A stretch of 64,000 nt of DNA, from the NCBI GenBank assembly GCA_017546205.1, contig JAFYXJ010000014.1, positions 1-64,000 on the forward strand, given 5' to 3'. A model generated the notes under the pieces. The model searched no databases, was not told where the DNA came from, and worked only from the letters and a program-made list of their open reading frames with translations. The DNA comes from Clostridia bacterium (GTDB taxonomy: Bacteria; Bacillota; Clostridia; Monoglobales; Monoglobaceae). This document shows, in pieces, positions 1-9,932 of this stretch. The first letter of the stretch is position 1, and every line of letters starts with the position of its first letter. The translations under genes were made by a program, and so were the position numbers.

Positions 1-1
1 C

Positions 2-472
2 ACAGCAGTTAATAATCTTCTTTGTGAAGCAAACAGCGAAGGTCTTTTCATCACAGCCTTTGAAGGTGTTTTAGACCTTGTAACAGGCGAATTTACTTTT
101 GTTAATGCAGGTCACGAAATGCCCTTTATCTATAAGGCGGGCGGTGATTTTGAGCCTTACAAGATTCGTGCAGGCTTTGTTCTTGCAGGTATGGAAAATA
201 TGAAATACCGTGCTGGCACAATGCAACTTGATGTAGGCGATAGAATATTCCAGTACACAGATGGTGTAACCGAGGCTACAAATATAAATAACGAGCTTTA
301 CGGGATGGATAGGCTCGGTGAAATACTTAATAAAGTTAAAAACGGAACTCCGCACGAAATTCTTCCTGCAGTTAAGAAGGATATTGATGAATTTGTGGGC
401 GAAGCACCGCAGTTTGATGATATTACAATGCTTTGTCTTGAATACAAAGAAAGAATGGAGGATGCCGAGTGA
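2..472 (+). CDS. PP2C/SpoIIE-type serine phosphatase, C-terminal part (5' end outside window)
   Basis: The open frame enters from the left edge, so only the last 156 residues are visible. They read as the C-terminal half of a PP2C-like SpoIIE/RsbU phosphatase domain: a 'FVNAGHEMPF' segment, a 'YTDGVTEATN' segment with the metal-binding Asp-Gly pair, and a terminal 'FDDITMLCLEY' with the second conserved Asp pair. Such enzymes dephosphorylate a STAS anti-anti-sigma factor to release a partner-switch kinase. The sensor or membrane part, if any, lies upstream. The stop overlaps the GTG start of the next gene by 4 nt (GTGA), implying translational coupling to the RsbW-like gene. Its real substrate is unknown. 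Confidence 0.85.
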   Translation, partial: TAVNNLLCEANSEGLFITAFEGVLDLVTGEFTFVNAGHEMPFIYKAGGDFEPYKIRAGFVLAGMENMKYRAGTMQLDVGDRIFQYTDGVTEATNINNELYGMDRLGEILNKVKNGTPHEILPAVKKDIDEFVGEAPQFDDITMLCLEYKERMEDAE

Positions 473-879
473 AAGAATTAAATATTGCCGCAACAGTTGA
501 AAACATTGCGACCGTTACGGACTTTGTGAACGAGCAGCTTGAAGCCCTGGATTGCCCCATGAAAGCACAGATGCAGATCGACATCGCCATCGACGAGCTT
601 TTCGGAAACATCGCCCATTATGCATACAATCCCGAAATCGGTCAGGCGACCGTGCGGATTGAAGTGGTGGAAGACCCCTTAAGCGTTGTTATTACTTTCA
701 TTGATAACGGCGTGCCTTACGATCCCCTTGCAAAAGCCGATCCCGACACAACCCTTTCCGCAGAGGAAAGAGACATCGGTGGTCTTGGTATCTACATGGT
801 AAAGAAGTCTATGGACGACATTGCCTATGAATACAAAGACGGACACAACATTTTGAAAATCAAAAAGAATCTGAATTAA
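469..879 (+). CDS. RsbW/SpoIIAB-like ATP-binding protein (anti-sigma kinase-type HATPase)
   Basis: A 136-residue protein with the GHKL/HATPase fold of partner-switch kinases. The N-box helix contains Glu43 and Asn47 (IDELFGNIAHYAY), the G1 box is D79-N80-G81, and a G2 glycine lid is at 104-107 (GGLG). In RsbW/SpoIIAB-type proteins this fold binds ATP and phosphorylates a STAS partner while sequestering a sigma factor. GTG start with GGAGG upstream, overlapping the preceding phosphatase stop. No STAS gene or sigma gene is next to it; instead an ABC importer follows 15 nt downstream, so its target may be unusual. The ATP-binding residues are all present, unlike in the related domain fused to the ABC ATPase downstream. 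Confidence 0.85.
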   Translation: MKELNIAATVENIATVTDFVNEQLEALDCPMKAQMQIDIAIDELFGNIAHYAYNPEIGQATVRIEVVEDPLSVVITFIDNGVPYDPLAKADPDTTLSAEERDIGGLGIYMVKKSMDDIAYEYKDGHNILKIKKNLN

Positions 880-894
880 AAGGAGATTTGAATT

Positions 895-1728
895 ATGAAA
901 AACTTTAAGAAACTTTTGGCAGTCCTCTTGGCAGGACTTATGCTCCTCTCCCTCGCCGCTTGCGGTGGGAAGAAAGATGAAGCATCGTGGAAGTTTGGTA
1001 TGCTGTCTTCCGCAAACAACTACAGCAACTATCTTGACCATCTTTCTGAAGCACACGGGGCTGAAAAAACGGGTGCAGAACTTGTAATGTTTGATAATCT
1101 CAATGCGGCAGTGATGGCTTTGAACAAAAACGATGTAGCCACATTGTTTGTCGATAAGGCATCCGGTGATTATATTGCTGCGCATAACATAGATTTCGTT
1201 TTCGTAGAGGAAAGCTTGTACCCCACAACCAATGATTACTCTATGATGACATTGGATACCAACAAAGAAGTTTATGATATTCTCAACAATGTCATTAAGG
1301 ATATGAAAGCAGACGGCACGCTTGACACGCTTATTGCAAATGAGTTGACTGCATATATCAACAGTGATCCGGTCGCAAAAGACCTTCCTCGCTTCGATGG
1401 TGCAATTACTATTAAAGTTGCTGTAACGGGCGATGTTCCTCCCATGGACTTTGTTGCCGCTGACGGCAAGGCTGCAGGTTTTAATGTTGCTCTGCTTACT
1501 GAGATTGCAAACCGTGCCCAGGTGAATTTTGACCTTGTTCAGGTTGACAGCGCAGCAAGAGCAACAGCTCTTTCTACCGGAAAGGTTGATGTAGTGTTCT
1601 GGGCAAAGAATTTCCCTTGTTCTGTGTGTGATGATGCAATTTGGGAAGAAGAAGTTGAAGGTACACTTATTACCGAAAGCTATTTCTCTTCCCCTGTAGG
1701 TCATGTAATGCCCAAATCCGACAAGTAA
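895..1728 (+). CDS. Extracellular solute-binding lipoprotein, circularly permuted SBP_bac_3 fold
   Basis: A 277-residue lipoprotein: signal peptide with a LAAC lipobox (Cys23), so it should be anchored outside the membrane. The mature protein reads in the wrong order for an amino-acid binding protein. Residues about 30-160 resemble the second lobe and the usual C-terminal end (AVMALNKNDVATLFVD, then the KADGTLDTLI helix). Residues about 170-277 resemble the usual N-terminus (VAVTGDVPPMDF..GKAAGFNVAL) and end at the hinge strand (ITESYFSS). The order is therefore lobe 2 then lobe 1. A CSVC pair lies where canonical proteins carry a TpER-like turn. RBS AAAAGGAG. A paralogue follows the ABC genes at 3549. 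Ligand unknown. Confidence 0.85.
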   Translation: MKNFKKLLAVLLAGLMLLSLAACGGKKDEASWKFGMLSSANNYSNYLDHLSEAHGAEKTGAELVMFDNLNAAVMALNKNDVATLFVDKASGDYIAAHNIDFVFVEESLYPTTNDYSMMTLDTNKEVYDILNNVIKDMKADGTLDTLIANELTAYINSDPVAKDLPRFDGAITIKVAVTGDVPPMDFVAADGKAAGFNVALLTEIANRAQVNFDLVQVDSAARATALSTGKVDVVFWAKNFPCSVCDDAIWEEEVEGTLITESYFSSPVGHVMPKSDK

Positions 1729-1764
1729 TCTCATACACAAAACGAGTAAAGGAAGATTATAGCC

Positions 1765-2436
1765 ATGTTTCAAAAGTTTTATGATCTTCTCATAGCCGGC
1801 GGAGCCTGGCTGACGATTTTGGAAGGACTTTGGGCAACCGTTCAGATTTCCTTTCTCGCCCTCGTTTTAGGCACGCTCCTCGGTGCAGGAGTTTGTGCTA
1901 TGAGAAGAAGCAAACACAAAATTTTAAGTATCCCTGCAAGTCTTTACATAGCGGTGCTTCGTGGCTCACCCGTACTGATGCTCTTAATGCTTTTCTATTA
2001 TGTAGTATTTGCAAAAAGTGATGTGGATGCCCTTGTGGTAGCCATTATCACCTTCGGTCTGAACACGGCGGCATATATCGCAGAGCTGATGCGCTCGGCG
2101 CTTGATGCCACCGACAAAGGACAGGTGGAAGCCATGCGTACACTTGGCTTTTCGGGATTTGCGGCGTTCCGCTACGTTACACTTCCGCAGGCGGCAGAAA
2201 TTGCAAAGCCTGTGTATCAGTCCACCATCATCAACCTTATTCAGTGGACGAGCGTGGTGGGCTACGTAACCATTACCGACCTAACGAGAGTTATTAACAA
2301 CATTTCCGCAAGGACAATGCAGCCACTCTTTATGATTATCGTCGGTATGATTATCTATCTCGGACTGTCCTATTTGGTAACGGGTATCTTCGCCCTGTCT
2401 GACATAATCAAGAAAAGAAAGGCAGGTGCAAAGTAA
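1765..2436 (+). CDS. Amino-acid-type ABC transporter permease (HisM/GlnP family)
   Basis: A 223-residue integral membrane protein of the polar amino-acid permease family, the usual length. It has an N-terminal 'LEGLWATVQISFLAL' segment, several hydrophobic spans and the cytoplasmic EAA loop that contacts the ATPase (EAMRTLGFSGFAAFRYVTLP, residues about 118-137). It should form the channel of an importer with the ATPase encoded immediately downstream, whose ATG overlaps this stop by 1 nt. RBS AAAGGAAG precedes the ATG. Only one permease gene is present, so it probably acts as a homodimer. The flanking binding proteins suggest an amino acid or related small polar ligand, but specificity cannot be read from the sequence. 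Confidence 0.9.
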   Translation: MFQKFYDLLIAGGAWLTILEGLWATVQISFLALVLGTLLGAGVCAMRRSKHKILSIPASLYIAVLRGSPVLMLLMLFYYVVFAKSDVDALVVAIITFGLNTAAYIAELMRSALDATDKGQVEAMRTLGFSGFAAFRYVTLPQAAEIAKPVYQSTIINLIQWTSVVGYVTITDLTRVINNISARTMQPLFMIIVGMIIYLGLSYLVTGIFALSDIIKKRKAGAK

Positions 2437-3527
2437 TGAGCTTAATTGAAGTAAAAGGACTTTGCAAGTCTTTCGGTAATCTTGAAGTCTTAAAGGACGT
2501 CAGCTTTAGCGTTGACGAAGGCGAGGTCGTTGTGATCATCGGCGGCTCCGGCTGCGGAAAGAGCGTAACGCTCCGCAGCATTGAGCTTTTGGAAAAACCC
2601 GATAAAGGTCAGATTTTCGTGGGCGGCAGAGAGATCACCGCCAAGGGTGCGGACATTGACTCCATTCGCCGTGAGATGGGTATGGTGTATCAGAGCTTTA
2701 ATCTGTTCTCTCACATGAACATTGAGGAAAATATGATACTCGCTCCCACAAAGCTGCTCAAAATGCCCCGTGAAGAAGCGATTGCAAAAGCAAAAGACCT
2801 CTTAAAACAGGTCGGTCTCTTGGATAAGCTCCACGCAATGCCTGCAAATCTTTCGGGCGGTCAGAAGCAGAGAGTAGCAATCGCAAGATGCCTTATGATG
2901 GAGCCGAAGATTATGCTTTTTGACGAGCCGACGTCGGCACTTGACCCCACAATGGTCGGTGAGGTTCTTGCCACTATGCGTATGCTTGCCAAAAAGGGCA
3001 TGACAATGATTATCGTTACCCACGAAATGAACTTCGCCAAAGAGATTGGCAGCCGTATTATGTTCCTTGCCGACAAGGGCGTTTACGAGCAAGGTACACC
3101 TGCGCAAGTTTTCGACAACCCCAAAAAGGAAAAGACCATTGCTTTCATTAAGAAGCTGAAGTTTATCTCCATGCACATAGACCACCGTGATTTTGACCTT
3201 ATGGAGCTTCACGGTAACATCACTACTTTTGGCGAGCGTTACGGACTTGGTTCTAAAGCGGCATACCGCCTGCAGCTCTGCGCCGAGGAACTCATCTATG
3301 AAATGTTCAAGTGTGCAGATAACGAAATCGACACCGACCTTTCGATTGAGTATTCCGAAAGCGAAAAGTGCATACGGCTTAACATTGATGCGAAAGGCAA
3401 AGAGTATAATCCCTTTGCTCTTTCCGAGGATGACGAGCCGATGGGCGTTATGATCGTTAAGAGAACGTCACAAAATTACAACCATTCCTACGAGAACGGC
3501 ACAAACAAAATCAGTATTGAAATTTAA
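2436..3527 (+). CDS. ABC transporter ATPase (GlnQ/HisP type) fused to a degenerate RsbW-like HATPase domain
   Basis: Residues 1-246 form a complete polar amino-acid importer ATPase: Walker A GGSGCGKS (36-43), Q-loop near 86, signature LSGGQ (139-143), Walker B ending at Glu164, H-loop His196. GlnQ-type proteins normally stop here. This one continues for about 117 residues (247-363) with a domain that lines up with RsbW-like HATPases, including the one at 469-879: a helix LQLCAEELIYEMF in the N-box position, IDAKGKEYNPF in the G1 position, and MGVMIVKR in the G2 position. The N-box Asn, the DNG of G1 and the glycine lid are missing, so ATP binding there is doubtful; a protein-binding or sensing role is my inference. 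No stop or frameshift separates the parts. Confidence 0.9.
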   Translation: MSLIEVKGLCKSFGNLEVLKDVSFSVDEGEVVVIIGGSGCGKSVTLRSIELLEKPDKGQIFVGGREITAKGADIDSIRREMGMVYQSFNLFSHMNIEENMILAPTKLLKMPREEAIAKAKDLLKQVGLLDKLHAMPANLSGGQKQRVAIARCLMMEPKIMLFDEPTSALDPTMVGEVLATMRMLAKKGMTMIIVTHEMNFAKEIGSRIMFLADKGVYEQGTPAQVFDNPKKEKTIAFIKKLKFISMHIDHRDFDLMELHGNITTFGERYGLGSKAAYRLQLCAEELIYEMFKCADNEIDTDLSIEYSESEKCIRLNIDAKGKEYNPFALSEDDEPMGVMIVKRTSQNYNHSYENGTNKISIEI

Positions 3528-3548
3528 TTTATTTGGAGGTATTCAAAA

Positions 3549-4376
3549 ATGAAAAGATTTTTAGCAATTATTTTGGCAGGGCTTATGATTCTTTCTTTCT
3601 CCTCTTGCGGTGGTAAGGATGAGAATGTAATTAAAGTTGGAGCACTTGAGGGAAGTGGTATCGACAATGTGCTATCAGAAGAACACAACGCACACTCGTC
3701 AAAAGGAAACAGCGGTGTATCTAATAGAACAATTCAGATTGTAAATTATAGCAATCTTTCTTCTGCACTTATGGATTTGGAAAGCGGCAAGATAGATAGT
3801 ATTGGACATGACGTGTGTACCGCTAAGTACATTGCTGCCCGTAATAACAAAATTGCTGTGGTCGAACAACCCGATAAAATAATTAATTATTCTATGATGA
3901 CAATGGACTCCAATAAAGAAGTCTATGACATTCTCAATAACGCCATCAAGGATATGAAGGCAGACGGCACTCTTGACAGTCTTATTGAAAACGAGCTGAA
4001 AGCATATATCGAAAATGATCCCGAACCCAAGGATCTGCCTCACTTTGAAGGCGCACAAACAATCAAAATTGGCGTAACAGGTGATCTTCCTCCTATGGAC
4101 TTTGTAGCGGCTAACGGCAAAGCAGCAGGCTTCAATATTGCTTTGCTTACCGAAATTGCAAACAGAGCAAAGGTAAACTTTGAGCTTGTTCAGATTGATG
4201 CAGGTGCAAGAGCAATGGCTTTGTCAAGTGGCAAGATAGATGCGGCATTCTGGACAAAATATATTACCTGTGATATTTGTAATTCAGCAGGTGCGGAAAA
4301 AATTGACGGAAACCTTATAACCGAAAGCTATTTTTCTTCTACGGGTTCAATAATCCAACTCAAATCCGATAAGTAA
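3549..4376 (+). CDS. Second circularly permuted SBP_bac_3-type solute-binding lipoprotein
   Basis: A 275-residue paralogue of the lipoprotein at 895-1728. The signal peptide ends in an SFSSC lipobox (Cys20). It has the same reversed lobe order: lobe-2-like segment (VIKVGALEGSGIDNVL..), the terminal KADGTLDSLI helix, then the lobe-1 start (IGVTGDLPPMDF..AAGFNIALLTEIANRA) and the hinge strand ITESYFSS at the end. Similarity to the first copy is high from about residue 115 onward and low in the first 100 residues, so the lobe-2-like part has diverged most. A CDIC pair sits at the equivalent of CSVC in the first copy. RBS TTGGAGG. The two copies bracket the permease and ATPase, suggesting duplication and two inputs into one transporter. 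Confidence 0.83.
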   Translation: MKRFLAIILAGLMILSFSSCGGKDENVIKVGALEGSGIDNVLSEEHNAHSSKGNSGVSNRTIQIVNYSNLSSALMDLESGKIDSIGHDVCTAKYIAARNNKIAVVEQPDKIINYSMMTMDSNKEVYDILNNAIKDMKADGTLDSLIENELKAYIENDPEPKDLPHFEGAQTIKIGVTGDLPPMDFVAANGKAAGFNIALLTEIANRAKVNFELVQIDAGARAMALSSGKIDAAFWTKYITCDICNSAGAEKIDGNLITESYFSSTGSIIQLKSDK

Positions 4377-4472: not shown

Positions 4473-4622
4473 ATGAACAAAATAAGCAGAAAAATATTAT
4501 CATTTGGCATTACTTTGTGTATATTGCTTTCCGTTTTTTCGGGAGTGGTATTTGCAAAGGATAACGCAACAAGAATTGAAGTTGCAACAATATTTTACAG
4601 ATTTGTTAAAGCAAATAAGTAA
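4473..4622 (+). CDS. 49-residue secreted micro-protein, probable SLH-domain remnant
   Basis: A short open frame with a good ribosome site (AACGGAGGGG, 7-8 nt before ATG). Residues 1-28 look like a signal peptide (basic start, hydrophobic core, cleavage near VFA-K). The rest ends in ATRIEVATIFYRFVKANK, which matches the closing segment of an S-layer homology domain (typically 'ATRAEFATML.RF'). Everything between a signal peptide and the end of an SLH domain is missing, so it looks like the two ends of a former SLH protein joined by deletion. It could still be translated and secreted. It is followed at once by a terminator. I cannot assign a function. Confidence 0.5.
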   Translation: MNKISRKILSFGITLCILLSVFSGVVFAKDNATRIEVATIFYRFVKANK

Positions 4623-4901: not shown

Positions 4902-6242
4902 ATGGGGACTAAGGTTACCTTTTATAAAAAATTATTTGCCATTGTGATACCCATTGCGTTTCAGCAGTTTATGCTGGCTTTGGTTACGGCATCGGATTCC
5001 TTGATGCTGGGAAAAGTGTCTCAGGACGCTTTGTCGGCGGTATCTCTTGCGGGACAAATCAGTTTTGTGGAAAACTTGTTTCTGCTGGCAATGGGCATTG
5101 GATTTTCCACCCTTGCCGCTCAATATTGGGGAAAAGAAGATAAGGATACCGTGGAGAAATTGTTTGCCTATGTAGTGAAAGCAACGGTTGGAATTGCATC
5201 TGTATTTTTTCTGGCAGGTTTGTTTTTTCCGAAATTTTTAATGGGCCTGTTCACACGTGATTCGGTGCTGATTGCAAAAGGTGCTGTCTATCTTCGCACC
5301 GTTGCTCCGGCATATTTGCTGACAGGTATTTCCCAGATGTTTTTGTGTTCTTTGAAGAATACGGGACGGGCAGGGAAAGTAGGGCTGATCAGTTCGGTTT
5401 GTCTGTGTCTGAATATTCTGCTGAATGCTATTTTGATATTTGGATTGTGGGGAATGCCCCGTTTGGAGATTGCCGGTGCGGCAATTGCGACGGTGGTGAC
5501 CCGTGCGTTGGAGATGCTTTGGAGCGGATGGGAGTCTGTTTGTAAAGACGGGGCACGGCTTCGGGTTCGATACATAAAACGGAATGATGCTCTTTTGAAA
5601 AAAGATTTCTGGCAGTATGCTGTCCCTATCCTTGGAAACCAACTTGTGTGGGGTGTGGGATTTACCATGTATTCGGTGATTATGGGGCATCTGGGTAGTG
5701 ATGCGGTGGCTGCAAACGCAGTTTCTGATATTGCGAAAAACCTGATTATTTGTTTCAGTCTTGGTATTGCCAACGGGGCAGGGATTCTGGTAGGGAACGA
5801 GCTAGGGGCAAATCGACTTGAGACGGCAAAAGCGTATGGAAAACGGCTTTGCAATCTTGCGTTGGTCAGTGGTGTGTGTTCGGCAGTCTTGTTATTGGCG
5901 GTCAGTCCTTTCTTGTTTCGGTTTGTTTCCATCAGCGAAACTGCGGCGGGATATCTGCAGGCGATGCTCTTGATGTGTACCTATAACCTGATTGCGAAAT
6001 CGGTAAATTGCACCGCTATATTGGGGATTTTGTGTGCCGGCGGCGATGCACGGTTTGGTATCCGCTGTGATTTCACCTTTATGTGGTGTCTGACTGTTCC
6101 TTTGGGATTGTTGGCGGCATTTGTGTTTCATCTGCCGGTGCTCTGGGTTTATTTTATTGTGAATCTGGATGAGGTTCTCAAACTTTTTGCCGTTGCCCGT
6201 CGGGTGCGCAGTTATGTTTGGGTGAGAAATTTAACCAGATAA
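4902..6242 (+). CDS. MATE family efflux transporter
   Basis: A 446-residue polytopic membrane protein with about 12 hydrophobic spans and the MATE N-terminal pattern (IVIPIAFQQFMLALVTASDSLMLG), plus the repeated half (PILGNQLVWGVGFTMYSVIMG, about residues 240-260). MATE proteins export cationic drugs or metabolites by Na+ or H+ antiport. ATG with GGAGAGGG upstream. It is a single gene, preceded by a possible attenuator RNA at 4725-4856 and followed by a thiamin operon with its own promoter. Substrate cannot be predicted; the leader might sense it. Confidence 0.9.
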   Translation: MGTKVTFYKKLFAIVIPIAFQQFMLALVTASDSLMLGKVSQDALSAVSLAGQISFVENLFLLAMGIGFSTLAAQYWGKEDKDTVEKLFAYVVKATVGIASVFFLAGLFFPKFLMGLFTRDSVLIAKGAVYLRTVAPAYLLTGISQMFLCSLKNTGRAGKVGLISSVCLCLNILLNAILIFGLWGMPRLEIAGAAIATVVTRALEMLWSGWESVCKDGARLRVRYIKRNDALLKKDFWQYAVPILGNQLVWGVGFTMYSVIMGHLGSDAVAANAVSDIAKNLIICFSLGIANGAGILVGNELGANRLETAKAYGKRLCNLALVSGVCSAVLLLAVSPFLFRFVSISETAAGYLQAMLLMCTYNLIAKSVNCTAILGILCAGGDARFGIRCDFTFMWCLTVPLGLLAAFVFHLPVLWVYFIVNLDEVLKLFAVARRVRSYVWVRNLTR

Positions 6243-6274: not shown

Positions 6275-6287
6275 GTAGAAAAGTGAA

Positions 6288-6380
6288 TAGAAGCGGGAGC
6301 TTGTAGTACAGGCTGAGAGGAAGGTGTGACCTTCGACCGAGAACCTGATTTGGATAATGCCAACGTAGGGATGCCTGAAC
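6288..6380 (+). promoter_or_regulatory. TPP riboswitch aptamer (THI element)
   Basis: Carries the diagnostic TPP-aptamer segments in order: GGCTGAGAGG (6311-6320), a variable P3 hairpin (GAAGGT/ACCTTC), ACCGAGAACCTGAT, then TTGGATAATGCCAA and CGTAGGGA (to 6371). It binds thiamin pyrophosphate and precedes thiW-thiM-cytX-thiE-thiD, all thiamin genes. The expression platform is the terminator at 6411-6440. Confidence 0.93.
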
Positions 6381-6410
6381 GAAAGTTTTGGGAAAGTAAT
6401 GCGTAGAATG

Positions 6411-6440
6411 GAAGTTGCCAAATCGGCGACTTCTTTTTTT
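6411..6440 (+). terminator. TPP-riboswitch terminator (expression platform)
   Basis: A 9-bp stem GAAGTTGCC/GGCGACTTC with one wobble pair, a 5-nt loop and a run of seven T, about 40 nt after the aptamer. It should form when TPP is bound and stop transcription before thiW. Between it and the thiW ATG (6441-6611) there is a further 170 nt of leader with TPP-like motifs and a small open frame; see findings. Confidence 0.85.
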
Positions 6441-6611
6441 GTTTGCAAGGAGGTGAAATTTGTATCCGAGAGAATCGGACGGATATCTGGCGAGCGCCTT
6501 TTGTCTTGTAGTTTGCGATGGGAACCCGTGTTTCGGGGTGAGAGGAGAAAATGGATTCTCGACCGAACAAGGTATATGCCTTGTACCATAACAAGAAAAG
6601 AGGAATTTCAA

Positions 6612-7325
6612 ATGAAAAAAACAAAAAACTTACTCAAAATGGTTGTACTATCCATGCTGATTGCCCTTGGGGTGGTGATATCCCCCATACTCAGAGTCGA
6701 GGGAATGTGTCCGATGGCGCATTTTATCAATATTGTATGCTCGGTGTTTCTGGGACCTTGGTATTCGCTACTGTGTGCTACGCTGATAGGTGTCATCCGG
6801 ATGGCAACTATGGCAATACCGCCTATTGCCTTGACGGGTGCAATATTCGGTGCTTTTCTGTCAGGGGTTTTTTATCGGCTGTCAAAAGGGAAAATCATCT
6901 TTGCGGTGCTTGGCGAAATCATTGGAACCGGAATCATCGGTGCCATTGTATCGTATCCTGTTATGAATTTTATTTGGGGAAAGGAAGGACTTAGTTGGTT
7001 GTTTTATGTTCCGTCGTTTATTTGCGGGACCCTTATTGGTGGCAGTATCGCGTACGTATTTTTACGCAAACTTGCAGATAACGGAATGCTTACCAAAATA
7101 CAGGCAAAACTTTCTTCCAGATGCTATTCGGACAAGAGTACCTTGCTTTCCAATACCTTAACCATTGCATCGTTTGGGGCAATCCTGTTTGTGGTTATTG
7201 AAATCGCATCCGGTATCTTTACTCTTACATCGCCGATATTCGATATTTTGCCGTACGCTTCTCTGATTTTATGTGTGTTTACAGCAATACTATATTACAT
7301 TTTCAAGAAGGTGAAACAAGAATGA
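6612..7325 (+). CDS. thiW: Thiamin-precursor (thiazole) ECF transporter S-component ThiW
   Basis: A 237-residue membrane protein. Its first 170 residues match the ThiW family pattern (LIALGVVISPILRVEGMCPM, then AHFINIVCSVFLGPWYSL). ThiW is the substrate-binding S-component that imports hydroxyethylthiazole through the shared ECF energising module. The reading frame extends upstream to 6399, but that stretch overlaps the riboswitch and terminator, so the ATG at 6612 (AAGAGGAA ribosome site) is chosen. The C-terminal third adds two more hydrophobic spans beyond the usual ThiW length. Regulated by the TPP riboswitch. The stop overlaps the thiM start (ATGA). Confidence 0.85.
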   Translation: MKKTKNLLKMVVLSMLIALGVVISPILRVEGMCPMAHFINIVCSVFLGPWYSLLCATLIGVIRMATMAIPPIALTGAIFGAFLSGVFYRLSKGKIIFAVLGEIIGTGIIGAIVSYPVMNFIWGKEGLSWLFYVPSFICGTLIGGSIAYVFLRKLADNGMLTKIQAKLSSRCYSDKSTLLSNTLTIASFGAILFVVIEIASGIFTLTSPIFDILPYASLILCVFTAILYYIFKKVKQE

Positions 7326-8119
7326 TAAATAAAATCTGCAATATTCGGGAGGGTGTTTTGAAACAACAACCTCTGATTCATTGCATTACAAATCCAATTT
7401 CCATCAACCAATGTGCAAATGCCATTCTTTCCCTTGGAGCAAAACCCATCATGGCAGAACATCCGGAAGAAGTTTGTGAAATCACCGATACCGCAGATGC
7501 CCTGATGCTAAACATTGGTAATATTACAGATGCAAGGATGAAATCCATGATGCTGGCGTTGCAATGTGCAAAAAACAAAGGAATTCCGGTCTTGCTGGAT
7601 GCTGTCGGGATTGCGTGTTCCGGATTCAGGAGAACGTATGTTTTGAATCTTTTGAACACATCTGTGCCCTTTGTTATAAAGGGAAATTATTCTGAAATTA
7701 TGGCACTATATCATGCAGAATATGTTTCGTCGGGCGTAGACGCAGATGATTCCGTCGATGTATGTCATATTACCCAAACAGCAACAGAACTTTCCCGAAA
7801 GTATCAGACGGTGATTCTTGCCACAGGGCAAACGGATGTTATCACAGACGGGAAAAGAATGGTACATGTTCAAAATGGGACGCCGGAACTTGCCTCCGTT
7901 ACCGGAACAGGGTGTATGCTTGGGGCGGTATGCTCTGCATTTATGACATCGGCAAGGCCTATGGAGGGGGCGATAGCTGCTTGTGTGTATCTTGGAATAT
8001 GTGGAGAGTTGGCAAAAACCGAGAAAGGCAACGGCAGTTTTATGGTGAACCTGATGGACAAGATTTCAATTCTTGACAAAGAAACGATTGCAAAGCACAT
8101 GAAGATGGAGGAAAAGTAA
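7322..8119 (+). CDS. thiM: Hydroxyethylthiazole kinase ThiM
   Basis: A 265-residue ribokinase-like enzyme that phosphorylates 4-methyl-5-(2-hydroxyethyl)thiazole with ATP for thiamin salvage. Visible family segments: CITNPISINQCANAIL near residue 21, GAKPIMAEHPEE, NIGNI, LLDAVGIACSGFR, VIKGNYSEI and the ATP/anion-hole motif TGTGCMLGAV near 195 with the catalytic Cys. The ATG overlaps the thiW stop by 4 nt, so the upstream in-frame extension is rejected. It pairs functionally with ThiW, which imports its substrate. Confidence 0.95.
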   Translation: MINKICNIREGVLKQQPLIHCITNPISINQCANAILSLGAKPIMAEHPEEVCEITDTADALMLNIGNITDARMKSMMLALQCAKNKGIPVLLDAVGIACSGFRRTYVLNLLNTSVPFVIKGNYSEIMALYHAEYVSSGVDADDSVDVCHITQTATELSRKYQTVILATGQTDVITDGKRMVHVQNGTPELASVTGTGCMLGAVCSAFMTSARPMEGAIAACVYLGICGELAKTEKGNGSFMVNLMDKISILDKETIAKHMKMEEK

Positions 8120-9304
8120 ATGAAAGAAAAACGGACCTCAGTTTTTGAAAACGGATTAATTTGGTTTGGCGCCGCAGTATCGATTGCAGAAATTATGACG
8201 GGAACCTATTTTGCACCGTTGGGTTTTGTCCGAGGACTTTTTGCAGTCTTGATTGGACATGGAATTGGTTGTATCATGCTTTTCCTTGCCGGACTTATTG
8301 GCGGGAAAACCCGTAAAAGTTCCATGGAAACGGCAAAAGCAAGTTTTGGACATAAGGGAGCACTGTTTTTTGCCATTGTGAACATCGTTCAACTTGTTGG
8401 TTGGACCGGTATCATGATTTACGACGGTTCTCTTGCGGCAAACAATATTTTTAACATAGGTAGGCTAGTTTGGTGTATGATTATCGGCGGACTTATTACC
8501 TTGTGGATTATGATTGGTATTAAAAATCTTGGGAAGGTGAATATCGTTGCAATGTTTGCGCTTCTTGTTCTGACCGTTGTACTTAGTTTTATTATTTTTG
8601 GAGAGAAAACAATACAGAATATCGACAGTAATATGATAACCTTTGGAGCTGCGGTTGAATTGTCTGTTGCAATGCCCCTTTCTTGGTTGCCTCTTATCAG
8701 CGACTACACAAGAGATGCGGAGAGCCCTGTGCGGGCAACAGCCGTTAGCGCAATCACATACGGTGTTGTCAGTGGTTTTATGTACATTATTGGCATGGGC
8801 GCAGCAATGTTTACCGCAGAAAGTGATATTGCACAGATTATGGTGAAAGCAGGACTGGGTATCGCAGGACTTGGCATCGTTGTTTTTTCGACGGTTACTA
8901 CAACATTTCTTGATGCATATTCTGCAGGTGTTTCAGCCGAGGCAATATCTCCAAAAGTCAACAGCAAATGGTTGGCTGTTGCGGTTACGGGAATTGGTAC
9001 TGCGGGAGCCATATTTTTTCCTATCACGGATATGACCGAATTTTTATATTTCATAGGTTCGGTGTTTGCCCCCATGATAGCCATTCAGATTGCTGAATTT
9101 TATTTGTTAAAAAGATGTGCAGAAAACCAGAAGTTCAGTATCAGAAACATGATTATCTGGTTCGTTGGATTTGTTATTTACAGATTTTTTATGCGTGTTG
9201 ATCTCATTGTCGGGAGCACATTGCTCGATGTGGTTATAACCATAATCATCTGTATTATAGTAGATTTTGCCTGGCAGAGGAGGAAACATAATGAAAGAGT
9301 TTGA
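8120..9304 (+). CDS. cytX: Hydroxymethylpyrimidine permease CytX (NCS1 family)
   Basis: A 394-residue polytopic membrane protein of the NCS1 nucleobase-cation symporter family, of the CytX subgroup found in TPP-riboswitch operons. Features: an N-terminal LIWFGAAVSIAEIMTGTYF segment and about 10-12 hydrophobic spans including PLSWLPLISDYTRDAESP around residues 187-204. It probably imports the pyrimidine moiety (HMP) used by ThiD. The ATG follows the thiM stop directly, with GGAGG 9-14 nt upstream, and the end overlaps thiE by 14 nt. Confidence 0.88.
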   Translation: MKEKRTSVFENGLIWFGAAVSIAEIMTGTYFAPLGFVRGLFAVLIGHGIGCIMLFLAGLIGGKTRKSSMETAKASFGHKGALFFAIVNIVQLVGWTGIMIYDGSLAANNIFNIGRLVWCMIIGGLITLWIMIGIKNLGKVNIVAMFALLVLTVVLSFIIFGEKTIQNIDSNMITFGAAVELSVAMPLSWLPLISDYTRDAESPVRATAVSAITYGVVSGFMYIIGMGAAMFTAESDIAQIMVKAGLGIAGLGIVVFSTVTTTFLDAYSAGVSAEAISPKVNSKWLAVAVTGIGTAGAIFFPITDMTEFLYFIGSVFAPMIAIQIAEFYLLKRCAENQKFSIRNMIIWFVGFVIYRFFMRVDLIVGSTLLDVVITIIICIIVDFAWQRRKHNERV

Positions 9305-9932
9305 TACGCAGTTATATTTTATTACCGATAGTACGGGTTACTCCAGGAAAGAATTCCTATATCGTGTTGAGCAGGCGCTTTCAGGCGGTGCAACCATGGT
9401 TCAACTTCGAGAAAAAGACAAATCCACACGGGAGTATGTGGAACTTGCCAAGGAGGTTCACAGACTTGCGAAAAAATATCATGTTCCCCTTATCATTGAT
9501 GACAGAGTAGATGTTGCGCTTGCTGTGAATGCTGAGGGCGTTCATGTGGGGCAATGTGATATGCCTGTGGCAATGGCAAGAAAACTTATGGGCGACGATA
9601 AGATTATAGGGGCAACTGCCAAAACTGTCGGACAAGCAAAGGAGGCATACCAACAAGGTGCGGACTATCTTGGGGTTGGTGCAATTTACCCTACCACGAC
9701 AAAAGTCAAGACTGTGCTGACATCGGTTGAAACCTTAAACGATATTTGCCATGCAGTTCCTATTCCTGTCAATGCCATTGGGGGACTGAATAAGGAAAAC
9801 ATAGAAATCCTTAAGGGAATACCGATTGCGGGAATTTGTGTGGTATCCGCCATTATGAAAGCGGAAAATCCTCAAGAAGAGGCAGACGTTTTAAGACAAG
9901 CTATTGAATCTATAAAGGGAGGGATAGTATGA
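9291..9932 (+). CDS. thiE: Thiamin-phosphate synthase ThiE
   Basis: A 213-residue TIM-barrel enzyme that joins HMP pyrophosphate and thiazole phosphate into thiamin phosphate. Characteristic segments: ATMVQLREKDKSTREY, LIIDDRVDVALAV, EGVHVGQCDMP, YLGVGAIYPTTTKV and VNAIGGLNKENI. The ATG at 9291 has AGAGGAGG 7-8 nt upstream and lies inside the cytX end, so it is preferred over the longer frame. It ends 4 nt into thiD (ATGA overlap). Confidence 0.95.
   Translation: MKEFDTQLYFITDSTGYSRKEFLYRVEQALSGGATMVQLREKDKSTREYVELAKEVHRLAKKYHVPLIIDDRVDVALAVNAEGVHVGQCDMPVAMARKLMGDDKIIGATAKTVGQAKEAYQQGADYLGVGAIYPTTTKVKTVLTSVETLNDICHAVPIPVNAIGGLNKENIEILKGIPIAGICVVSAIMKAENPQEEADVLRQAIESIKGGIV

Follow-up and report, generated by a model that had tools for sequence, protein, structure and literature searches.

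Natural circular permutation in two SBP_bac_3 lipoproteins of a clostridial ABC importer locus

Canonical binding proteins of the SBP_bac_3 family run from lobe 1 through a hinge into lobe 2 and end in lobe 1. Two lipoproteins encoded near one end of a Clostridia contig (JAFYXJ010000014.1, of which positions 1 to 64,000 are here called the window) seem to break this rule. An initial annotation, made from the sequence, placed them at 895..1728 and 3549..4376 on the forward strand, put the segment that usually ends such a protein first and the one that usually starts it second, and took the pair for true circular permutants and not truncations. Are they intact proteins, how did the order arise, and what do they do in this locus?

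Lipoprotein 1 (895..1728, + strand; P0001; 277 aa) and lipoprotein 2 (3549..4376, + strand; P0002; 275 aa) are 57% identical, and each has a lipobox that can be read by eye (Cys23 and Cys20, respectively), which in lipoprotein 1 belongs to a signal peptide. Both match the Pfam profile SBP_bac_3 (PF00497) at 61.6 and 65.7 bits, well over the cut-off of 26.4. In each the match is split into two stretches, and the start of the profile maps to the C-terminal half: residues 173-235 of lipoprotein 1 and 172-240 of lipoprotein 2. Alignment with the solved chain 6svf_A gives the same swapped order, query residues 174-235 matching chain residues 13-74 and query residues 58-148 matching 136-224.

HMMs for three separate segments (the N-terminal part of lobe 1, L1N; lobe 2, L2; the C-terminal part of lobe 1, L1C) define the order directly. 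They were built from nine rows, the two window lipoproteins among them, and matched both proteins at E values from 5e-19 to 2e-36. Lipoprotein 1 comprises L2 at residues 31-108 (985-1218), L1C at 113-156 (1231-1362), a joining linker (1363-1407), and L1N with the hinge strand at 172-277 (1408-1725); lipoprotein 2 comprises L2 at 26-110 (3624-3878), L1C at 113-155 (3885-4013), and L1N at 170-275 (4056-4373). The order is thus L2-L1C-L1N, and neither protein gave HMM hits in the canonical order L1N-L2-L1C. The same HMMs called the canonical order in 17 other ORFs, so the swapped order is not forced by the method. Restoring the canonical order in silico turned the Pfam match of lipoprotein 2 into a single stretch (profile positions 1-127 of 132, 68.1 bits); re-ordered lipoprotein 1 reached only 63.8 bits and still matched in two stretches.

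Each segment occurs once per chain, the ancestral C- and N-termini are bridged by 14-15 residues, and both chains break at the exit of hinge strand 1. The model of lipoprotein 1 (like all models here, a prediction from an alignment of permuted sequences) is one compact two-lobed fold, pLDDT 84.3 and pTM 0.83: a single domain, not two independent incomplete ones. The initial call of permutation over truncation therefore stands on complete segments, joined termini, the position of the break, and one predicted domain, and we regard both proteins as almost certainly natural circular permutants of a two-lobed SBP_bac_3 protein. Two details of that call need correction. Neither chain opens with the motif ALxxGxVD as written (P0001 has ALNKNDVAT, P0002 DLESGKID, in that first part), and the chains do not stop at ITESYFSS but run 11 residues further, as far as the hinge strand extends.

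Is the order peculiar to this genome? A contig scan of genomes with lipoprotein 1 alone as query found no relative. A second, targeted scan, with an alignment of 13 permuted proteins as query, found the order L2-L1C-L1N in 80 of its 80 best loci (79 single, one tandem). The permease is fused to the permuted protein in 15 of these and follows directly in 65, and an ABC ATPase lies downstream in 74. Isolates and one complete chromosome are among the loci with a permuted protein, which rules out an assembly artefact. Homologues of the same order, for which the initial annotation had suggested a search, are therefore present in many genomes; the permutation is larger and more recurrent than was stated there, and the window pair belongs to an unusual gene set.

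Other searches set the pair in wider context. Lipoprotein 1 found matches in 63 of 148 relative genomes at E <=1e-3, mostly partial or in canonical order, and the best match outside its own genome (genome G137) reached E 1.8e-12 at 29% identity. A profile of both window proteins, at E <=1e-15, found only their own genome in sets of 38 genomes from the family and 51 from the order. In a search of the class (391 genomes), at least 37 genomes held a one-frame match to the permuted profile, starting at or before profile position 33 and ending at or after position 258 of 264, a count in which not every frame was opened and to which a canonical tandem can contribute a like span. A search of the phylum (398 genomes) matched 19 genomes at E <=1e-40, six with such a span, two in the same class; it used another profile and a stricter E, and its rates are not comparable with those for the class.

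Arrays of two to four lobe-2/lobe-1 units fused to permeases also exist, and the exit of hinge 1 is joined by two further cut points: hinge 2, and a site inside lobe 2 (the unit of L236). Counts bearing on double anchoring were made with a crude lipobox pattern, which misses some evident cases: it picks out 9 of the 22 permuted fusions to a permease and 9 of the 11 array fusions (one of the 11 a truncated gene copy). GlnPQ-type SBD1-SBD2-permease fusions (6h30) resemble these relatives in carrying family-3 binding domains, with tandem lobes, on a permease. The GlnPQ domains have the canonical lobe order, whereas the permuted fusions begin with lobe 2 and place the N-terminal part of lobe 1 last, before the permease.

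Between the two window lipoproteins, also on the + strand, lie genes for an ABC importer. The 223-aa permease (1765..2436) is of GlnP/HisM type (PF00528, 61.2 bits) and more specifically HEQRo-type (TIGR01726, 76.8 bits versus a cut-off of 42.2); its best-scoring relative among those seen is the permease part of the binding-protein-array-permease fusion in G137 (42% identity). The following 363-aa protein (2436-3527) starts with a GlnQ-like ABC ATPase domain (2436..3161; PF00005, ABC_tran, 128.8 bits), which scores 273.2 bits against the GlnQ model, under the equivalog cut-off of 379; its best-scoring relatives among those seen, leading only narrowly, are the ATPases of genomes G333 and G137 (57% identity). 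Taken whole, the locus is very probably best explained by the lipoproteins being permuted receptors of the importer encoded between them. That they are importer components is likewise highly probable; a HEQRo-type permease and a GlnQ-like ATPase beside the binding protein are features of importers of polar amino acids, with amino-acid transport a putative function here.

The ATPase has an unusual C-terminus, a degenerate RsbW/HATPase_c_2-type domain (3162..3524, + strand). Profile-profile comparison with RsbW-like proteins recognizes it clearly (probability 97.4, E 9.1e-12); a single-sequence Pfam match stays at 18.2 bits, below the cut-off of 27.4. The N box, DxG, and GxG lid are the ATP-binding motifs of RsbW/SpoIIAB kinases. 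Here the GGLG lid is absent and the N-box Asn is replaced by Glu. Aligned ATPase C-terminal domains lack the lid in 19 of 19 cases and, read by eye, keep the N-box Asn in 2. Upstream of lipoprotein 1, on the same strand, are a SpoIIE-type PP2C phosphatase, present as its C-terminal part only (2..472; PF07228, 110.4 bits, profile positions 46-191 of 192) because the contig, whose base 1 is also that of the window, begins inside the gene, and an RsbW/SpoIIAB-like HATPase_c_2 protein (469..879; PF13581, 75.2 bits) in whose alignments N box, DNG, and GGLG are intact.

Partner switching among SpoIIE, RsbW, and STAS proteins governs sigma factors of the general stress response and sporulation. In the window a SpoIIE phosphatase and an RsbW-like protein with intact motifs adjoin an ABC importer whose ATPase bears a degenerate RsbW-type copy. 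The gene set might be mainly a sensor, in which receptors and importer report ligand to the SpoIIE/RsbW switch through the degenerate domain, with transport secondary. Loci related to the window set do recur, and in all 18 with the ATPase fusion (17 plus the window) lobe 2 comes first in the binding protein, although at L203 no segment but the final one of lobe 1 passed, and L216 has its first lobe 2 on a separate ORF. The stretch read encodes SpoIIE at 7 of the 18 and an RsbW-like protein at 5, and a STAS protein lies at one; loss of the ATP lid in every aligned C-terminal domain fits as well. However, the stretch read holds no SpoIIE at the other 11 loci (some on short contigs), STAS was found at only 1 of 6 loci with selected neighbours scanned (17 neighbour proteins), and a dead domain could merely dimerise or inhibit in trans. 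Moreover, the RsbW-type ATPase domain is absent from all ORFs of the 80 best loci, so most permuted binding proteins work without it. A mainly sensory role for the gene set is possible but rather doubtful.

In canonical proteins the Arg of the T-x-E-R motif holds the ligand carboxylate, and an Asp in lobe 2 lies near the ligand amino group. The Asp (D87) is invariant in alignment A1. In place of the motif GMTxTxER, lipoprotein 1 has a loop with a CxxC (C242 and C245; 1618..1629, + strand), matched in lipoprotein 2 at 4269..4280 (+ strand). The Arg is apparently absent, read by hand from alignment A4 as Glu in P0001 and Lys in P0002 across an uncertain loop, which is poorly predicted in the lipoprotein 1 model (mature residues 218-230, pLDDT <50). 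The Arg is invariant in 34 aligned permuted relatives, and most permuted relatives keep the amino-acid motif GMTxTxxR; a ligand-motif pattern missed 4 of 80 proteins, three of which (L106, L146, and L161) show the motif by eye, L115 being the fourth. The window pair, then, seems to have lost the canonical Arg for carboxylate binding, which makes an ordinary alpha-amino acid, held in the usual manner, an improbable ligand.

The apparent loss of the Arg, in a pocket loop that is not confidently predicted, could also be a sign of decay. Each lipoprotein would then be two half-domains of a tandem binding protein, lobe 2 from one copy and lobe 1 from the following copy, that fail to fold with each other: a non-binding remnant, decayed or domain-swapping. 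GlnPQ offers a precedent for such a span, since residues 97-327 of chain 6h30_A match positions 24-259 of the permuted profile and can be read as lobe 2 of SBD1 plus lobe 1 of SBD2. The window nevertheless has two intact copies, 57% identical, that conserve the lobe-2 Asp and the CxxC; the predicted fold has a pTM of 0.83 and an end-to-end structural match (see below); and the 80 best relatives are all intact, with a permease fused or following, and the Arg is invariant in the 34 relatives aligned. We consider decay very improbable. Domain swapping is seen in crystals of TmArgBP, and a domain-swapped dimer may be an alternative form of the window lipoproteins.

Natural permutants remain the favoured reading. 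After structural re-alignment, the lipoprotein 1 model shares the chain topology of the glycine betaine binder OpuAC from end to end (5nxx_C: Z 13.7, rmsd 3.9, 219 residues, model 1..255 on chain 9..262). Among the 50 entries listed, the four for OpuAC align over 213-219 residues (Z 12.2-13.7) and the other 46, canonical amino-acid-binding proteins included, over 165-187. The Z lead is small (13.7 versus 12.2 for the best LysR domain), and the rmsd exceeds that of most shorter matches. Foldseek alone ranked an OpuAC chain only 46th, with rmsd above 5 in 48 of its 50 listed rows; re-alignment is clearer. The model of a Roseburia hominis relative (L118; pLDDT 93.3, pTM 0.86) behaves likewise: OpuAC entries again give the longest alignments (200-210 of 243 residues), and their lead in Z is again small (12.5 versus 11.5, with one OpuAC entry at 10.9). 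Its residues 2-89 superimpose on residues 104-187 (domain 2) of TmArgBP at 46% identity. That the lipoproteins simply belong to the OpuAC family, whose own topology they would share without any new permutation, is highly improbable even though both models, once re-aligned, match OpuAC best, given that Pfam assigns both lipoproteins to SBP_bac_3 and to no OpuAC family at E <=1, that no OpuAC is among the 39 solved chains with a sequence match, and that the relatives mostly keep GMTxTxxR.

How did the order arise? A tree test rejected a single origin of the lobe-2-first order (p-AU 3e-61; 33 of 52 rows), and nine changes of lobe order fall on the tree; the L236 unit counts as lobe-2-first among the nine and was left out of the single-origin test. 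A clade uniting the window pair with the array lineage withstands the test (p 0.105) but is absent from the free tree; for the three type-B rows, a single clade is a borderline case (p 0.054). The placement of the window pair is unsafe because it sits on a long branch. Permutation likely proceeded by duplication of tandem lobes and subsequent trimming, for which the permease-fused arrays of two to four units could represent intermediates. Tentatively, and aware that it may well be wrong in part, we propose repeated permutation of SBP_bac_3 proteins in Clostridia, at no fewer than three cut points and by way of permease arrays; one branch would be a transporter-sensor, its permuted receptor driving an ABC importer whose ATPase carries the dead RsbW-type domain and feeding SpoIIE/RsbW/STAS, and the window pocket would be rebuilt around the CxxC.

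In this architecture, the chain starts at the entry of lobe 2, passes through hinge 2 into lobe 1 to form its last strand and helices, crosses a short linker between the ancestral C- and N-termini, completes lobe 1, and ends with hinge strand 1. Lobe 2 then carries the N-terminal lipid anchor, and lobe 1 the free C-terminus. Presumably the lobes close on ligand as usual. Because the termini lie on different lobes, one end of the chain would relay closure to the anchor and, in fused relatives, the other end would relay it to the permease. That such mechanical coupling is the advantage of permutation seems rather unlikely, if conceivable. The new termini might also matter for docking on the permease, as the initial annotation suggested.

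Permutation has precedents in other binding proteins. The two-lobed OpuAC of B. subtilis and other glycine-betaine binders (2b4l, 5nxx) provide the whole-chain top match but differ from the window lipoproteins in sequence family and ligand; OpuAC itself is presumably the permuted member among these binders. Published circular-permutation relations of glycine-betaine-binding proteins extend to 2b4l (PMC2395249). According to PMC4990184, TpMglB-2 (Tp0684; "Type Ic / Cluster Bc"), which has relatives among Gram-positive gut bacteria, is likewise a natural permutant of a lipid-anchored binding protein and binds ligand, but it belongs to a Type I sugar-binding family and is permuted elsewhere, within the N lobe. 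(TpMglB-2 is absent among the 50 re-alignment matches listed for lipoprotein 1, an absence that excludes nothing.) Engineered cpLAO-BP lysine sensors, derived from the lysine/arginine/ornithine-binding protein, have the same layout, as described in PMC5087393: they are permuted at a link between lobes, their termini lie on different lobes, and they bind lysine, albeit with an affinity some 36-fold below that of the native protein; these, however, are man-made, with a (GGS)4 linker. Natural permutation is therefore already known in other binding-protein families; for SBP_bac_3, no earlier report was found in the open-access literature on binding-protein permutation.

Circular permutation of binding proteins is a standard trick of biosensor engineering and a classic topic of fold evolution. 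Here, a single sequence family offers many natural members with and without the permutation, including several cut points, arrays, and permease fusions, some in cultured isolates. This natural set makes the effects of permutation on affinity, closure, and docking, along with an origin by duplication and trimming, directly testable. Permuted binding proteins may also be misread in profile searches as two broken matches. Finally, should the gene link to SpoIIE and RsbW prove functional, nutrient uptake would have a new route to regulation; were the transporter-sensor reading true, an ABC importer would be talking to sigma-factor control.

The two lipoprotein genes reported in the initial annotation, 895-1728 and 3549-4376, are present, and both products are family-3 solute-binding proteins (Pfam SBP_bac_3, 61.6 and 65.7 bits, respectively; cut-off 26.4). 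In each, the Pfam match is split in two, with the profile start falling in the C-terminal half. A single solved chain, 6svf_A, reveals the same inversion: query residues 174-235 align to chain residues 13-74, and 58-148 to 136-224. Segment HMMs for lobe 2 (L2) and the C- and N-terminal parts of lobe 1 (L1C and L1N) give the order L2-L1C-L1N in both proteins, every segment once. All three comparisons thus return a non-canonical order, and the proposed circular permutation stands, as does its break point: in both proteins the chain is broken at the exit of hinge strand 1. The L1C-L1N joint comprises 14-15 residues in each. Rearranged in silico, lipoprotein 2 matches the profile in a single stretch (positions 1-127 of 132); no single stretch was obtained for rearranged lipoprotein 1, perhaps because of its unusual loop. 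The pair's own sub-family was seen in one genome only, a draft estimated to be 74% complete.

Mature lipoprotein 1 was modelled from an alignment of 35 permuted sequences (mean pLDDT 84.3, pTM 0.83); pLDDT falls below 50 at residues 1-4 and 218-230. After re-alignment with VIA-align, the top four entries are the glycine-betaine-binding protein OpuAC (Z 12.2-13.7, rmsd 3.8-4.4), aligned over 213-219 of 255 residues, essentially the entire model. The 46 other listed entries, which include canonical amino-acid-binding proteins (Z 11.3-11.8) and LysR effector domains (Z at most 12.2), align over 165-187 residues (Z 11.3-12.2). OpuAC leads in Z by a small margin, and for this model the number of aligned residues says more; Foldseek alone ranked an OpuAC chain only 46th. 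A second model, of the Roseburia hominis relative L118 (pLDDT 93.3, pTM 0.86), places OpuAC structure 2b4l first (Z 12.5, 208 of 243 residues, rmsd 4.9); OpuAC entries cover 200-210 residues, and full-length entries from other families 159-177 (Z at most 11.5). Residues 2-89 of this model match the isolated domain 2 of TmArgBP (its residues 104-187) at 46% identity, so the canonical second lobe forms the N-terminus of the L118 protein. Both models derive from permuted sequences, and domain swapping may be the alternative arrangement.

Permuted relatives mostly retain the GMTxTxxR amino-acid motif and the lobe-2 Asp; the motif Arg is invariant in 34 rows. At this position the window pair, read by hand, has Glu or Lys, and both proteins share a CxxC in a loop that the model does not resolve. 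These residues make ordinary alpha-amino-acid binding by the pair doubtful.

A genome-contig scan that took 13 aligned permuted proteins as its query found at least 567 relatives. The best 80, a sample biased by the permuted query, all have the L2-L1C-L1N order (79 single units, one tandem). The binding protein is fused to a permease in 15 and followed by a permease gene in 65; an ABC ATPase gene lies downstream in 74, and none within range in six. Isolates and one complete chromosome occur among these 80, which come from Lachnospiraceae, Oscillospiraceae, Ruminococcus, Blautia, Roseburia and the like, plus one metagenome bin labelled Bacteroides (L129). Across all collected loci, a likewise biased sample, segment matches occur in 173 different ORFs: 109 are L2-L1C-L1N; 23 are L1C-L1N-L2, cut at hinge 2 (type B; L041, L047, L077, L078, L080, and L217-L234); 21 are canonical; nine are arrays of several units; and ten are partial or irregular. 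The last ORF, L236:1419-2246, has its cut within lobe 2: it begins with lobe-2 profile positions 29-70 and finishes with positions 1-30. By their segment order, type B and L236 represent further natural cut points. Separately, residues 381-613 of a 615-residue protein (L044:7186-9030) form a lobe-2-first unit; its first part differs, and by eye resembles a sugar-binding protein. One Lachnospira genome encodes permuted and canonical permease fusions close together (L155:5851-7434 and 8295-9926), a natural side-by-side comparison of the two.

For phylogeny, the segments of 52 units were cut out and rejoined in canonical order. The three main lobe orders require nine changes on the resulting tree, and a single clade for all lobe-2-first rows is rejected (p-AU 3e-61). 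On this sequence evidence, permutation arose on more than one occasion. The data do not reject a clade made up of the array lineage and the window pair (p 0.105). The three type-B rows occupy two places, one inside a starred group with canonical proteins, but the test against placing them in one clade is no more than borderline (p 0.054). Permease-fused arrays comprise two to four L2-L1 units, and the window's own genome carries one with four, running off the contig end (L162, G000:C9:1-3264). Such tandem arrays are plausible intermediates toward permutation.

At its start, which is the contig end, the window cuts into a SpoIIE phosphatase gene (110.4 bits). Next come the genes for an RsbW-like protein (75.2 bits), lipoprotein 1, a permease, an ABC ATPase (2436-3527), and lipoprotein 2. 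The ATPase carries an extra, degenerate C-terminal domain of the RsbW/HATPase_c_2 type (profile comparison with RsbW-like proteins: probability 97.4, E 9.1e-12, 115 columns). By eye, none of 19 such domains in an alignment has the ATP lid and its GGLG, and only two retain the N-box Asn, so kinase activity is not expected. Of 391 genomes searched for the domain, 38 matched at E ≤1e-4, part of them through other HATPase proteins. Sixteen stretches and three earlier loci were read; once L202 (truncated contig) and L162 (domain absent) are taken out of these 19, the other 17 have the ATPase fusion, 18 with the window. All 18 encode lobe-2-first binding proteins, with L1C often under threshold, only the last lobe-1 segment passing in L203, and the first lobe 2 of L216 in a separate ORF. 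Seven of the 18 stretches include SpoIIE and five an RsbW-like protein; one of 17 neighbour proteins scanned at six fusion loci contains a STAS domain. By bit score, the window permease and ATPase (the latter by a small margin) are closest to counterparts in genomes G137 and G333, whose loci combine SpoIIE, an RsbW-like protein, arrays, and the ATPase fusion. The extra domain was found in no ORF at the loci of the best 80 scan relatives, which speaks against a general role. A signalling function would be an idea drawn from gene neighbourhood and domain relationship.

At L212:9823-11043, a SpoIIE-RsbW gene and a permuted array flank a gene that joins STAS to an APH-type kinase domain. MATE transporters bearing HATPase_c_2 at the C-terminus (L201:12602-14341 and L215:18627-19901) adjoin SpoIIE/RsbW/permuted-protein loci; a plain MATE gene (4902-6242) follows the window's gene set. 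A tiny ORF (4473-4622, 49 residues) encodes a signal peptide, and its end may resemble the tail of an S-layer homology domain. A TPP riboswitch (6286-6388, 61.5 bits) precedes an apparent thiamine salvage set (6399-9304), of which the permease (8120-9304, PF02133) is the only profile-tested member.

Three published sources place these proteins among known permutants. Circular-permutation relations are described among glycine-betaine-binding proteins, 2b4l included (PMC2395249), and TpMglB-2 ("Type Ic") is a natural circular permutant of a binding protein (PMC4990184); natural permutation is common to both, whereas the family here is SBP_bac_3. In the lysine/arginine/ornithine-binding protein the permutation between lobes was engineered (PMC5087393), whereas here it is natural. 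Searches of an open-access library turned up no account of SBP_bac_3 proteins being permuted in nature. Since natural cases are known elsewhere, the SBP_bac_3 proteins are a variant of a known phenomenon: permutation of binding proteins as such is not new, and in SBP_bac_3 its natural occurrence is widespread and recurrent.
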